Shown piece after piece: positions 1,042 to 5,417 of a stretch of DNA of 5,417 bases; the first letter of the stretch is position 1; each line of letters starts with the position of its first letter. Below the pieces are notes generated by a model. The model saw only the letters and a program-made list of their open reading frames with translations, made no database searches and was not told the origin of the DNA. The translations under genes were made by a program, and so were the position numbers. The stretch comes from Deltaproteobacteria bacterium. Lineage in GTDB: Bacteria; Bdellovibrionota_F; JAHFAK01. Location: NCBI GenBank assembly GCA_023250585.1, contig JAHFAK010000092.1, forward strand, positions 1 to 5,417, read 5' to 3'.

Positions 1042-1189
1042 AAAATTCTTTGAAGCAAAGAGACAAAGACGAAGACAACTTGCCAATATTCCTATCCAGG
1101 AGAAGGTAAAAATTCTTGTCAAATTGCAAAAAATGGCCATTCCTGTTTTGGTAGCGCGTGGGATTCAAAAGAAGGTCTGGGAGTTGTAA
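1016..1189 (+). CDS. Small basic protein, 57 aa, toxin-antitoxin-locus type
   Basis: The protein is short and strongly basic, with two helices. An amphipathic first helix holds EKFFEAKRQRRRQLANIP. A second segment, EKVKILVKLQKMAIPVL, is followed by a C-terminal RG...VWEL. From memory, this pattern (FFEAK..RR..LA..P..EK..ILV.LQKMA.P...ARG....VW.L) recurs in small conserved proteins encoded beside nucleotidyltransferase-type toxin genes; this is recall, not a search. TTG at 1016 is preferred because GGGAG lies seven bases upstream; starting at TTG 992 would add eight residues. The start lies inside the tail of the preceding remnant frame, which suggests former coupling. Without a partner its job today is unknown, possibly that of an orphan antitoxin. 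Its end overlaps the antisense tail of the Fis-like fragment. Confidence 0.65.
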   Translation: MKQDKKIIEKFFEAKRQRRRQLANIPIQEKVKILVKLQKMAIPVLVARGIQKKVWEL

Positions 1190-1316
1190 TTCTACTTCCC
1201 GGCTTCCTGATGTCGTATTTTTTCAGACGATTGCAGAAGGTACGGCGTGAAATATTTAAGATTCGAGCGGCTTCTTCAACATTAGATCTAAGCTCTTCAC
1301 ACCTTTGCCGGTTCAT
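1119..1316 (-). pseudogene. Fis-type helix-turn-helix fragment (end of a sigma54-activator-like regulator)
   Basis: The frame encodes 65 residues. Residues 13-36, including VEEAARILNISRRTFCNRL and ending KKYDI, closely match the C-terminal Fis-type DNA-binding helix-turn-helix of NtrC-family activators (AA..LGISRRTLY.KL..YGI). No receiver, AAA+ or other domain precedes it. The reading frame opens inside the end of the fic gene, overlapping it by 20 bases, and after about residue 40 it runs into low-complexity sequence antisense to the 57-aa gene. The best reading is the 3' end of a larger regulator gene cut off by the junction with fic. A free-standing small DNA-binding protein translated by coupling from fic is less likely but possible. 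Confidence 0.5.
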
Positions 1317-2439
1317 TCAGAACATCCAATAGCTTGCGGGCGCAGTAAATCCGGTTTCGTTGTGCATCGTTCATTTGTTTTAGGACACCTGCTTTTTCCA
1401 GTTTGTCGATGGCACGCTGAGCTGTTGGGAAAGCAATCTTCTGTTTTTTTGCTATGCCATTGACTGTCATGAAGGGATTCTCCATGCAGCTGTCAATCAA
1501 GAGCAAACAATTTTTATCCGCCTTGCGGGTAAATGATTGTTTCCACTTTGAGACGATATTTTGCATCCGTTTGATACGATCCAAGGCATCTTCCGCTTGG
1601 CGAGCCACGCCGTTGAGAAAATATTCAAGCCAACCTTCCCAGTCCCCATTTTCATTTACTGCACGAAGACGGGCATAGTATTCGTCTCTAGTGGACTCAA
1701 AAAAAGCACTCAGATAAAAAATTGGTGAAGGCAGAATACCATGTTCCACAAGATATAGAATAATTAATAGCCGTCCTGTGCGACCATTTCCATCCAGAAA
1801 TGGGTGAATCGCCTCGAATTGGAGATGGACCAGAGCAATCGTCACCAGTGGTGGCAGAGTAGATTCATGAATGAATTTTTCCAAAGCTCCTAAACAATCC
1901 ATCAGTAGATCTGGAGGAGGTGGAACATACGTGGCATTTTGCAAGGTACAGCCAGCAACACCAATCCAATTTTGAGATCGTCTCAATTCACCTGGAGTGG
2001 CCATGTTACCTCTAACTCCTTTCATAAGTTGTTCATGAATCTCACAAATGAAACGTAATGAAAGGGGCAGTGTTTTCAAGCGCCTTATCCCATATTCCAA
2101 AGCTTTGACATAGTTTTCGACTTCTTTGAGATCTGAACGATCGCGCCCTGTCTCCACTCCTGCCTCGTCTGCGAATAATTCTGCCAATGAAGTTTGAGTA
2201 CCTTCGATTCGGCTTGACAACACAGCTTCACGGCGGACAAAAGGGCGAATCAGTAGATGAGGGTTTGGCAAGGCTGAACCAATGCTGGCTAGCTGTCCAA
2301 TCAAACGGTCAGCATCGGATAGGTGTCTTGCAAGTCTTTCATTCCAATCCATTTTAGGTGGCAGCGGGTCAGGCACATAAGCTTGATAGCCTTGGGGGCA
2401 ATGTATCTTTTTCCCATGAATTTTCAATTTGTTGACCAT
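1297..2439 (-). CDS. fic: Class II Fic-family protein adenylyltransferase with C-terminal winged helix
   Basis: This protein would transfer AMP from ATP to hydroxyl side chains of target proteins. Its 380 residues are typical for full-length Fic proteins of this group. The N-terminal Fic_N region (about 30-95) contains S75-S-R-I-E79-G80, the inhibitory-helix motif (S/T)xxxE(G/N), so the protein should be self-inhibited and need no separate antitoxin. The catalytic motif is H212-P-F-L-D216-G-N-G-R220-T-G-R223, complete with catalytic His, metal-binding acid and ATP-binding Arg residues. Residues 308-370 form a predicted winged helix, with TAQRAIDKLEKAGVL as the likely recognition-helix region. 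ATG at 2439 is chosen from the N-terminal match; it has only a weak GAG upstream. A strong promoter overlapped by a palindrome precedes it, suggesting autoregulation through the winged helix (inference). The target protein is not predictable. Confidence 0.93.
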   Translation of the reverse strand: MVNKLKIHGKKIHCPQGYQAYVPDPLPPKMDWNERLARHLSDADRLIGQLASIGSALPNPHLLIRPFVRREAVLSSRIEGTQTSLAELFADEAGVETGRDRSDLKEVENYVKALEYGIRRLKTLPLSLRFICEIHEQLMKGVRGNMATPGELRRSQNWIGVAGCTLQNATYVPPPPDLLMDCLGALEKFIHESTLPPLVTIALVHLQFEAIHPFLDGNGRTGRLLIILYLVEHGILPSPIFYLSAFFESTRDEYYARLRAVNENGDWEGWLEYFLNGVARQAEDALDRIKRMQNIVSKWKQSFTRKADKNCLLLIDSCMENPFMTVNGIAKKQKIAFPTAQRAIDKLEKAGVLKQMNDAQRNRIYCARKLLDVLNEPAKV

Positions 2440-2448
2440 GGTGTGATC

Positions 2449-2460
2449 TCGTTAATAAAA
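2449..2460 (-). promoter_or_regulatory. Possible third operator half-site in the fic leader
   Basis: On the minus strand this reads TTTTATTAACGA. It resembles one arm of the palindrome just upstream (TTTTATAATTAACGA) with a three-base deletion. It lies between the predicted transcription start and the fic ATG, in the same orientation as the distal arm, and could be an auxiliary binding site. In such AT-rich sequence chance is possible. Confidence 0.35.
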
Positions 2461-2461
2461 G

Positions 2462-2505
2462 GTTTTATAATTAACGATATTATATAAAATCGTTAATTAT
2501 AAAAC
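2462..2505. promoter_or_regulatory. Perfect 17-bp inverted repeat, candidate fic operator
   Basis: The arms 2462-2478 and 2489-2505 are perfect reverse complements (GTTTTATAATTAACGAT and its complement) separated by ten bases. On the minus strand one arm fills most of the spacer between the -35 and -10 boxes of fic, the -10 box lies in the loop, and the other arm covers the expected transcription start. A dimeric repressor bound here would block the promoter. The obvious candidate binder is the winged helix of the Fic protein itself, which is inference. A role as an AT-rich terminator for the upstream envelope operon is less likely because the stem is weak in GC. Confidence 0.7.
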
Positions 2506-2507
2506 AA
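2479..2507 (-). promoter_or_regulatory. Sigma70-type promoter of fic
   Basis: On the minus strand the -35 box TTGTTT is at 2507-2502 and the -10 box TATAAT, a perfect consensus, is at 2484-2479, with the optimal 17-base spacing. Transcription would begin near 2472, giving a leader of roughly 33 bases before the fic ATG. The promoter is interleaved with the 17-bp inverted repeat. Confidence 0.65.
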
Positions 2508-2540: not shown

Positions 2541-3329
2541 TCAAAAAGCGAAGGAACATGCGGGCATTACAAGAAAATTCAGTCGTTTGAAGCCAGTGGT
2601 TGGCTGGCGATCGTAGGTGGTCGTCAGCGAAAGATGTATCGCAACATTCGCGGTTACATTATAAGCAATGGTTTCAACGTTCTCGAAGGAATAGTTTGCC
2701 GCTTCTTGGGCATTGACATCAGCAAATAAAGATTGGCTTAGTTTCCAGTTTTTTGGAAAAGGTTCTTCCCAAAACAATGCGGTAAAGATCGAATGTCCAT
2801 GGGAGACTTCATCCAGAGTCGACTTGCTGTATGAAGGAGAGTAACCAAGATCCAGGCGAACGTTGCGCGGATGATTCGGAAAAAAATGGAAAGACCCACC
2901 GATATCGCCGCCAATGGCTCGATCCTCTCCGGACGTTGTCTGTTGGGAAACTCCTGTACCTATAAAATTCGAAAACCGGGGAAGCCACAGGAATCTAAAA
3001 CGATAAGATGCCTTGAGCTCCCGTCCATATTGCCCATGAGGGGTATCAACGGTTGTCAGAAGCGACGATGCTGAAAAAGTCTGCCGCCATTGTGCCCCGC
3101 GGAATACCGTCGATCCTCCCAACGAAAAGGCTGTGCTGTCTACGCTGCCGATCAAGCCACCAACACCACCTTGGACCTCCGCGGAAAATGTATCTTTTGT
3201 TTCAACTTCGGGCTCCTCTTTAAGGCGCCGAGGAGTTTCAGCTTGTGCTGTTTCCAAAGTAACCGAGCTCAGAACAATTAATGCAATGAACGCTGTTTTT
3301 ACGAATCTCAACTTTTGGAGAAATTTCAT
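2541..3329 (-). CDS. Exported beta-barrel outer membrane protein, DUF481-like
   Basis: The 262-residue product starts with a classical signal peptide: basic residues to K11, a hydrophobic core at about 12-23, and likely cleavage after A-Q-A30. After a charged linker (31-47), the rest is alternating beta-strand sequence rich in Gly, Ser, Thr and aromatics, with repeated strands such as LKASYRFRFLWLP, GGSFHFFP and VRLDLGYSPSYS. It ends in Phe (SFAF), as outer-membrane barrels usually do. The pattern resembles the DUF481/YdiY family of 'salt-induced' outer membrane proteins, but I cannot confirm the family without a profile search. The ATG overlaps the TGA of the preceding MscL-like gene (ATGA) and has a strong GGAGG six bases upstream, so the two genes form a coupled operon. 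No transport or binding function can be assigned. Confidence 0.82.
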   Translation of the reverse strand: MKFLQKLRFVKTAFIALIVLSSVTLETAQAETPRRLKEEPEVETKDTFSAEVQGGVGGLIGSVDSTAFSLGGSTVFRGAQWRQTFSASSLLTTVDTPHGQYGRELKASYRFRFLWLPRFSNFIGTGVSQQTTSGEDRAIGGDIGGSFHFFPNHPRNVRLDLGYSPSYSKSTLDEVSHGHSIFTALFWEEPFPKNWKLSQSLFADVNAQEAANYSFENVETIAYNVTANVAIHLSLTTTYDRQPTTGFKRLNFLVMPACSFAF

Positions 3330-3702: not shown

Positions 3703-3862
3703 AGTAATGGCTCAGTTAATGGGGTGAGTTAAGGGAGTAGGCATGTTGCAAAAAAATATTCCTATCGAGCGCGCTTTCCTGTTCTTAATAATATTATGGA
3801 AGCGACGTCGATAGGAATATTTTTTTGCAACATGCCTACTCCCTAATAACTGAAGCATTACT
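3703..3862. repeat. Degenerate outer inverted repeat around the palindromic element
   Basis: Bases 3703-3720 and the reverse complement of 3845-3862 agree at 15 of 18 positions. They flank the perfect 37-bp arms on both sides, although the left flank has about 11 extra bases (3721-3731). This may mean that the element is longer and has decayed at its ends, or that an older symmetrical site was the insertion target. Confidence 0.4.
3732..3844. mobile_element. MITE-like palindromic element with perfect 37-bp inverted arms
   Basis: The arms 3732-3768 and 3808-3844 are perfect reverse complements; the outer end reads AGGGAGTAGGCATGTTGCAA. They surround 39 non-coding bases. If the true ends are 3733 and 3843, the element is flanked by TAA on both sides (3730-3732 and 3844-3846), which would fit a three-base target duplication. 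A TGTTGCAAAA-type end resembles terminal repeats of some IS5-family elements, as I recall them, so this could be a non-autonomous derivative. It sits between divergent genes, so it is not a terminator serving converging transcripts. The pairing would form a very stable hairpin in RNA or single-stranded DNA. Confidence 0.65.
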
Positions 3863-3941: not shown

Positions 3942-5417
3942 ATGAAATTCAAATACCGATTGTATCTGAGAGGCTTGATTGTCGTCATGTACTTGCTTGC
4001 CATACTGCATTTAGGAGGTATCAGTGGATGTGACAGTGAAGTTACCACACGAAGCGTTAAAGGCATGCTTTCTAAAAATCTTCTGACCGAACTCGATATG
4101 GACAATTTTGGGAAACTTGATTTCTATGTCTGCATAGCTCAAGGGAAATGCGTTGACAATAAGACCTTAGACTCTGATGGCACTTTTGCTTTTCGGACAG
4201 AAACCGGGAATGACTATTTCCTCATGTTCGTTTCTGACGATGGATTGGAAGTCTCGTTAAGAATTCCCGTTTATTCCGGCCCCAATGGGCAGCTTTCTGT
4301 TATTAATCTTGGTACCTGCATGAAAACAGGTTGCGATCTTCTTGCTACCGCTTTGGATACTATCGATTCAGACGGTGATGGGGTTTCAGATACTGATGAT
4401 ACAGACGATGATAATGATGGCATTCTGGATAGTGAGGATGACTGCCACAAAGGTATTTGCGGTGATCCTACTCAAAGCGATTCCGACGGAGATGGTATTC
4501 CTGATTTGGCCGAGGGTGAGATTAATGATTCGCATGGTGATTTGGATGGCGACAAACTTGATGATGAATTTGATGAGGATCAAGATGGTGATGGTATCGT
4601 GAATAATGAAGACCCCGATGATGATAATGATGGTATAGCCGATATCGCCGATGAAGATGCCGATAACGATAATCGGGACGCAATTGCTGAACATGATTTA
4701 GATGGAGATGGTAATCCTGATGATGTAGATATTGATGATGATAATGACGGGATTCGAGATAGCAAGGACACTGATGACGACAACGATGGAATACAAGATG
4801 CCGATGATCCTGATGATGATAACGATGGTATAGCGGATGTTCAGGAACCTGATTTAGACGGAGATAAAATTCCAGACTCATTCGATACCGATGACGACAA
4901 CGATGGAATTCATGACTCTCAGGACACTGATGATGACGGAGATGGACTTGAAGACAGCGTCGATGCTGATGATGACAATGATGGAATCAAGGACGTTATT
5001 GAGGATCAAGATAACGATGGTATTTTTGGCTATTTGGATGCCGATGACGACAACGATGGAATTGATGATGGAATTGATACCGATGATGATGGAGATGGGA
5101 TTGCGGATACGAGTGACTTGAATGACAAGGATTCTGATGGTGATGGGCTCATTGATGCTATCGACCTTGATGACGATAATGATGGAGTCGTAGATGCCGT
5201 TGACACTGACGAAAACGGAAATTTAATTGATGATACCCTTGAAGATATCGATGGCGATGGCCAAACCAATATCGCCGATGCTGATGATGATGGTGATGGA
5301 ATTCCTGATACTCAGGATCTTGATGCCAATGGTGACGGGGTTGATGACTTCTTTATAACAGATGCTGATGGTGATGGCATCAATGATTTTGTGGATACCG
5401 ATGATGATAATGATGGA
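3942..5417 (+). CDS. Asp-rich lipoprotein with thrombospondin type 3-like calcium-binding repeats (3' end outside the window)
   Basis: The first 492 residues are present, with no stop. AAGGAG at 3933-3938 lies three bases before the ATG, slightly close. A basic N-terminus and a hydrophobic stretch (12-26) end in the lipobox I-S-G-C30, so the mature protein should be lipid-anchored at Cys30, followed by Asp31. Residues 31-138 form a small beta-rich domain, with G-x-F-x-F and YFLMFV strands resembling a carboxypeptidase-regulatory-like fold. Cysteines come in close pairs: 64/70, 126/131 and 168/173. From residue 142 to the window end come D-x-D-x-D-G-x-x-D repeats like thrombospondin type 3 repeats, which bind calcium and stiffen into a rod. 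The protein is probably a long calcium-dependent surface or periplasmic stalk that carries or links another domain; that role is inference. It is transcribed divergently from the mscL operon across the repeat element. Confidence 0.88.
   Translation, partial: MKFKYRLYLRGLIVVMYLLAILHLGGISGCDSEVTTRSVKGMLSKNLLTELDMDNFGKLDFYVCIAQGKCVDNKTLDSDGTFAFRTETGNDYFLMFVSDDGLEVSLRIPVYSGPNGQLSVINLGTCMKTGCDLLATALDTIDSDGDGVSDTDDTDDDNDGILDSEDDCHKGICGDPTQSDSDGDGIPDLAEGEINDSHGDLDGDKLDDEFDEDQDGDGIVNNEDPDDDNDGIADIADEDADNDNRDAIAEHDLDGDGNPDDVDIDDDNDGIRDSKDTDDDNDGIQDADDPDDDNDGIADVQEPDLDGDKIPDSFDTDDDNDGIHDSQDTDDDGDGLEDSVDADDDNDGIKDVIEDQDNDGIFGYLDADDDNDGIDDGIDTDDDGDGIADTSDLNDKDSDGDGLIDAIDLDDDNDGVVDAVDTDENGNLIDDTLEDIDGDGQTNIADADDDGDGIPDTQDLDANGDGVDDFFITDADGDGINDFVDTDDDNDG
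4365..5417 (+). repeat. Array of 13-residue Asp-rich repeats (39-bp period)
   Basis: The consensus DTDDDNDGIxDxx recurs within the lipoprotein. The Asn of DDDNDG falls at residues 158, 229, 268, 281, 294, 320, 346, 371, 413 and 490. Between 229 and 346 all intervals are exact multiples of 13; elsewhere small indels of one to a few residues shift the register. At DNA level most copies differ in synonymous codons, but GATGACGACAACGATGGAAT is identical at 4773, 4890 and 5043. The array continues past the window. Confidence 0.85.

Follow-up and report, generated by a model that had tools for sequence, protein, structure and literature searches.

Fic proteins with a C-terminal DNA-binding domain

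Autorepression by a Fic protein that carries a helix-turn-helix (HTH) domain is already known. CccR of Yersinia pseudotuberculosis, a T6SS-secreted protein, represses its own promoter by means of its HTH and a palindrome near the −35 and −10 elements, and the spacing of the site has been explained by a back-to-back dimer (PMC9755527). Repression is still seen with the catalytic mutant H192A (PMC9755527). Another class II Fic protein, CbFic2, binds DNA through a C-terminal HTH and dimerizes on it; the part of the report drawn on here describes nanomolar affinity for random DNA and experiments with such DNA on histone H3, and mentions no operator of its own (PMC10628234). The anti-phage protein SoFic/EcSofic (PDB 3eqx, 3zcn and 9tch) has a C-terminal domain that is placed differently in the apo and ATP-bound forms and is needed for toxicity; the promoter of SoFic itself is not treated in that paper (PMC12249575).

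Here we describe a fic gene in a 5,417-nt stretch of a deltaproteobacterial contig (the window). The locus resembles that of CccR: inverted repeats overlap the −35 and −10 elements, and through them a class II Fic protein with a C-terminal HTH would repress the gene that encodes it. The predicted operator geometry is different, however, and this holds family-wide: the CccR footprint is a single widely spaced pair, AGATAATCAT-N26-ATGATAATCT, i.e., two 10-bp arms 26 bp apart, whereas the window has an array of four half-sites with a 41-bp period and gaps of N9, N14 and N9.

Domain structure of the window Fic

The fic gene (1297-2439, minus strand) encodes a class II Fic AMP-transferase of 380 amino acids, composed of Fic_N, Fic and a C-terminal winged helix. 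The Pfam scores of 93.4 bits for Fic_N and 77.6 bits for Fic are both well above the cut-offs. The catalytic motif HPFLDGNGRTGR (residues 212-223; 1771-1806, minus strand) is intact in the homologue alignment, with H212, P213, F214, D216, G217, N218, G219, R220, G222 and R223 invariant in 38 homologues. SSRIEG (residues 75-80; 2200-2217, minus strand), the motif of the class II inhibitory helix, is conserved in the same proteins, S75, S76 and E79 being invariant and G80 nearly so. The protein thus combines an intact Fic motif, a class II inhibitory motif and a C-terminal HTH.

The first-pass annotation of the window had proposed that the protein ends in a winged helix, and the AlphaFold model (pLDDT 91.1) bears this out. 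The domain spans residues 309-366 (1342-1515, minus strand) and consists of three helices (309-320, 326-332 and 337-349) and two strands (323-325 and 364-366). The third helix is the predicted recognition helix (1393-1431, minus strand), which starts with F337 and P338. At the 3′ end of fic, downstream of which the SoFic anti-phage system has its AS1 antitoxin gene, the sole overlapping open reading frame (1119-1316, minus strand) encodes 65 aa with a Fis-type HTH (HTH_8, 27 bits) and resembles a piece of an NtrC-type regulator.

The nearest solved fold is that of Shewanella SoFic (3zcn, TM 0.83), with which the window Fic shares domain order and fold. It matches the PADLOC SoFic profile with 422 bits (E 5.7e-127). 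Since the NCBIfam SoFic equivalog gives 193.9 bits against a cut-off of 550, we do not file it as a SoFic equivalog. CccR is a distant relative: PDB entry 7xux, which is titled only FIC domain protein and is probably CccR, scores 63 bits with a TM of 0.59.

Promoter and half-sites upstream of fic

Upstream of the minus-strand fic gene, a perfect 17-bp inverted repeat with a 10-nt loop occupies positions 2462-2505. Its arms, GTTTTATAATTAACGAT (2462-2478) and ATCGTTAATTATAAAAC (2489-2505), are exact reverse complements of each other, as the first-pass annotation had noted. The repeat is real and far beyond chance, since the longest repeat in Markov simulations of local composition (n=2000) was 12 bp, and simulations of the whole window (n=50) gave the same maximum.

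Read on the fic strand, a −35 element TTGTTT (2507-2502) is followed by a 17-nt spacer (2501-2485) and by a −10 element TATAAT (2484-2479) that lies inside the loop. The promoter had been described as lying exactly within the repeat; the 17-nt spacer and the position of TATAAT in the loop are as stated, but TTGTTT begins 2 bp outside. A mechanical promoter scan of the window did not list TTGTTT-17-TATAAT because TTGTTT is a weak −35 element with only three of six matches to TTGACA. The upstream DUF481 gene (2541-3329) is co-directional with fic, so the promoter in the 100-bp gap would be private to fic.

Alignment of homologous upstream regions places the repeat in a larger array of four alternating half-sites, H0> N9 H1< N14 H2> N9 H3<, which in the window reads CATTAATTA cTTGTTTta TAATTAACG attttaTATAATat CGTTAATTA taaaacctt TTATTAACG. 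All four half-sites are given here on the minus strand. H1 (TAATTAACG, 2491-2499) falls inside the 17-bp spacer and H2 (CGTTAATTA, 2468-2476) at the expected transcription start; together they form the core of the palindrome and are the best-matched pair (mean 7.58/9). The inverted repeat consequently comprises H1, the −10 element, H2 and symmetric flanks. The −35 element lies between H0 and H1, and the −10 element lies between H1 and H2, ending 2 bp before H2. H3 (TTATTAACG, 2450-2458) is located in the leader, 41 bp from H1. It is the degenerate third half-site of the first-pass annotation (TATTAACG on the fic strand) and is indeed real, being conserved in two close orthologues and across the family. 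H0 (CATTAATTA, 2509-2517), which that annotation lacked, forms a 41-bp direct repeat with H2 (2468/2509), lies within the sequence TCATTAATTA at 2518-2509 and is the least conserved of the four by column conservation. By sequence and conservation, an inverted-repeat operator thus covers the −35 and −10 elements of fic.

Only one exact H1-H2 pair is present in the 2.24-Mb genome, the one at fic, so no wider regulon is apparent. When mismatches were allowed in the H1-H2 scan, the number of matches in the genome was at chance level (81 vs 205 for the reversed pattern).

Spread and drift of the operator layout

The upstream regions of close homologues had been suggested as a check on the palindrome, whose absence there would have refuted the proposed circuit. 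It is not absent: TTAACG...CGTTAA is retained, in an unchanged register, by orthologues with 81-82% identity. Comparison of the window with L228 (82%) and L229 (81%) showed conserved blocks at H1, TATAWA, H2, H3, the TTG of the −35 element and part of H0. Divergence is seen in the flanks, to which the symmetric outer ends of the 17-bp arms belong. The site therefore stands as a fic promoter and operator with an additional half-site, but the conserved unit is the four-half-site array with its 41-bp period and not the perfect 17-bp palindrome.

The period is also apparent from direct repeats of 9-mers in 83 upstream regions of homologues with 46-100% identity, the window itself included. A same-strand repeat at exactly 41 bp was present in 35 regions, compared to 1.4 expected. 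Lags of 39, 40, 42 and 43 bp were found in 1-6 regions each, and further enrichment occurred at 31 bp (20 regions) and 72 bp (11 regions). In a free scan of all spacing pairs, the 12 best pairs all satisfied a+b=41, a sum that is independent of the 8-mer or 9-mer frame. The score used for alignment contains a small bonus for YG..AATA; neither the lag test nor half-site positions 3-4 are affected by this bias.

The layout exceeded the 99% level of control DNA from the same locus (random windows) at 83 of 116 loci with at least 46% identity, i.e., about a quarter of these homologues fall short of it. Compared to shuffled sequences, z > 3 was reached at 54 of 66 loci with at least 52% identity. 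When loci were grouped by identity, the corresponding counts were 30 of 34 (58-75%), 21 of 29 (52-58%) and 22 of 54 (38-42%), and below 42% the majority of loci did not reach z > 3. The layout is represented in 16 or more named phyla. Among 77 loci, 31 different half-site octamers occur: the layout is fixed while the half-site sequence drifts.

The promoter elements keep their register as well. In 54 regions with at least 53% identity, columns 2-7 in the first gap are enriched in TTG-like sequences (mean 2.26 matches vs at most 2.07 in 1000 shuffles). For TATAAT, the optimum in the second gap is columns 7-12 (2.91 vs at most 2.83 in shuffles), with offset 9 nearly as good (2.87) because this gap is AT-rich. 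The distance from one register to the other is 17 bp, which indicates that half-sites and promoter elements interleave in this group as they do in the window. Relatives such as L013 and L020 have their −10 element at the corresponding place. The phase of the promoter nevertheless varies, since some loci, e.g., L037 and L042, have TTGAC in the second gap instead.

Some upstream regions contain longer arrays. L009, L036 and L042 have five or six half-sites with an extra spacing of 12 bp between 8-mers, which accounts for the lags of 31 and 72 bp; the six half-sites of L009 together form one large palindrome. An array with z 7.8 is also found in front of a 43%-identical Fic on plasmid pEm1132c of Sinorhizobium meliloti (L243), where the recognition helix has P at its start and TT stands in the half-site GTTTATTAA, making this soil bacterium a tractable test case. 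For the plasmid homologues of Picosynechococcus PCC 7002 and Haloarcula the array was below significance. The Thermus HB8 homologue, with z 2.2, is a borderline case; its start codon is doubtful, and a 30-bp direct repeat may be present.

Covariation of half-site and recognition helix

If Fic itself is the binder, changes in the recognition helix should be mirrored in the half-site. Of all Fic columns that could be aligned, P338 ranked first and F337 second in mutual information with the half-site. In a distance-matched test, in which pairs were matched for overall identity, P338 again ranked first of 337, but R361 and W32 came so close behind that this test does not settle the matter by itself. 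Of the proteins with Pro338, 30 of 33 have TT at half-site positions 3-4, compared to none of the 40 with Thr338. The rule held for loci fetched after it was noticed or set aside before, with TT in 22 of 24 cases for Pro338 and 0 of 12 for Thr338. Fisher values for this association ignore relatedness.

To take descent into account, a tree was built without the winged helix. The window, L228 and L229 (P338, CGTTAATA) are nested in a clade of 47 rows (support 100) that consists mostly of members with T338 and CG(A/C)(A/T)AATA, and their sister is L119 (T338, CGATAATAA). On this tree, residue 338 and the half-site switched jointly in the small clade of the window. L064, with 50% identity and in a separate clade, combines P338 with CGTTAATAA and represents a convergent case. 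A tree-corrected sign test of P338 against TT gave a median p of 0.06 (4.5 concordant, 0.1 discordant) from only 6 independent contrasts on well-supported branches. As judged from the aligned sequences, the drift of the half-site tracks the start of the recognition helix of the Fic winged helix.

The covariation suggests a clean test of specificity by a one-residue swap, Pro or Thr at position 338 with TT or A(A/T) in the half-site. The partners would be P338T with a CGAAAATA operator and the wild-type with CGTTAATA.

Proposed autorepression and its alternatives

These results point to an autoregulatory operator-promoter of fic that is read by the winged-helix tails of the Fic protein, a reading to which we assign a probability of about 0.88. 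Fic very probably binds and represses its own promoter, as published for CccR. Points against this reading are the nanomolar affinity of CbFic2 for random DNA (PMC10628234), the other spacing of the CccR operator, the homologues that fall short of the control level and the tree-corrected p of 0.06. The first-pass annotation had proposed Fic as binding partner and autorepressor. Covariation of the half-site with the recognition helix and the CccR precedent make this very probable. The layout and its conservation, the register of the promoter elements and the covariation are seen in the sequences; that Fic binds the DNA itself, acts as a repressor and not as an activator, and does so cooperatively is what we infer.

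In the proposed mechanism, the winged-helix tails of Fic molecules, probably cooperating dimers, would read the four alternating half-sites CGTTAATA/T. With 41 bp, or about four helical turns, between them, half-sites that point the same way would all face the same side of the helix. The lags of 41, 31 and 72 bp correspond to about 4, 3 and 7 turns, consistent with several Fic molecules on one face. Because the half-sites cover the −35 and −10 elements and the expected start point, their occupancy should exclude RNA polymerase. Such exclusion would amount to negative autoregulation and would keep the level of a potentially toxic AMP-transferase low. With a constant layout, and with the half-site and the start of the recognition helix changing jointly, each Fic would address its own promoter.

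A separate transcription factor might instead bind the array and control fic, as operators are often read by unlinked regulators. We regard this as highly improbable. Changes in the half-site go along with changes at the beginning of the recognition helix of Fic itself, the exact site pair is found once in the genome of the window, and the layout in front of fic genes in at least 16 phyla would need one shared regulator everywhere.

Binding of Fic to the array might also serve mainly as an enzyme switch, in which operator DNA assembles dimers and thereby sets AMPylation or deAMPylation, with repression being secondary. Such a role is suggested by CbFic2, which is dimerized and stimulated by DNA binding (PMC10628234), and by the variable placement and role in toxicity of the SoFic C-terminal domain (PMC12249575). 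The location of half-sites on fic's own promoter elements fits best with repression, though, and the CccR mutant H192A retains repression without its catalytic residue intact (PMC9755527). Moreover, one site per cell is too few for many enzyme molecules, and a predominantly enzymatic function of the array thus seems very doubtful.

That the palindrome is a mobile element, or forms an RNA hairpin as a terminator of the DUF481 gene or as an attenuator in the leader, can be dismissed as a negligible possibility: the repeat does lie downstream of the co-directional DUF481 gene, which ends at 2541, but a terminator scan of the window found none there, H1 lies 5′ of the predicted start so that the hairpin could not form in fic mRNA, RNA pairing would not explain the conserved direct-repeat spacing, no second exact copy of the 17-mer was found in the genome, and a plasmid search with the operator region gave no match.

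A coupling of enzymatic state and transcription by self-AMPylation or the inhibitory helix, as the first-pass annotation had proposed, would be speculative: the placement of the SoFic C-terminal domain varies and DNA dimerizes CbFic2, but CccR still represses when its catalytic residue is mutated. A more far-reaching version, which we consider rather unlikely, is that this Fic branch combines a private, fast-diversifying lattice of fixed geometry (41/31/72 bp) and a simple code at the helix start with dimer assembly that sets AMPylation or deAMPylation, Fic released from the operator being an active toxin. If so, release could occur, e.g., after phage damage to the chromosome.

A search of the open-access literature gave no account of the 41-bp alternating lattice, of its spread in the family or of the recognition code. 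The lattice points to the most likely role of the C-terminal winged helix in a large group of Fic proteins. For every upstream region that was aligned it also predicts a footprint, and it offers a handle on a possible coupling between DNA occupancy and AMPylation.

Other features of the window

An open reading frame at 3942-5417 (plus strand) runs off the window and gave no match in a Pfam search at the threshold used. It has a lipoprotein-like start and dense DxDxDG repeats, which resemble the calcium-binding repeats of thrombospondin type 3. Between it and the DUF481 gene, a palindromic element of 113 bp (3732-3844) has perfect arms of 37 bp and ends in GGGAGTAGGCATG and CATGCCTACTCCC. Several dozen copies with 69-100% identity are dispersed over the genome. 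The element is REP/REPIN- or MITE-like, and Y1 (IS200/RAYT-type) transposase genes in the genome might mobilize it.
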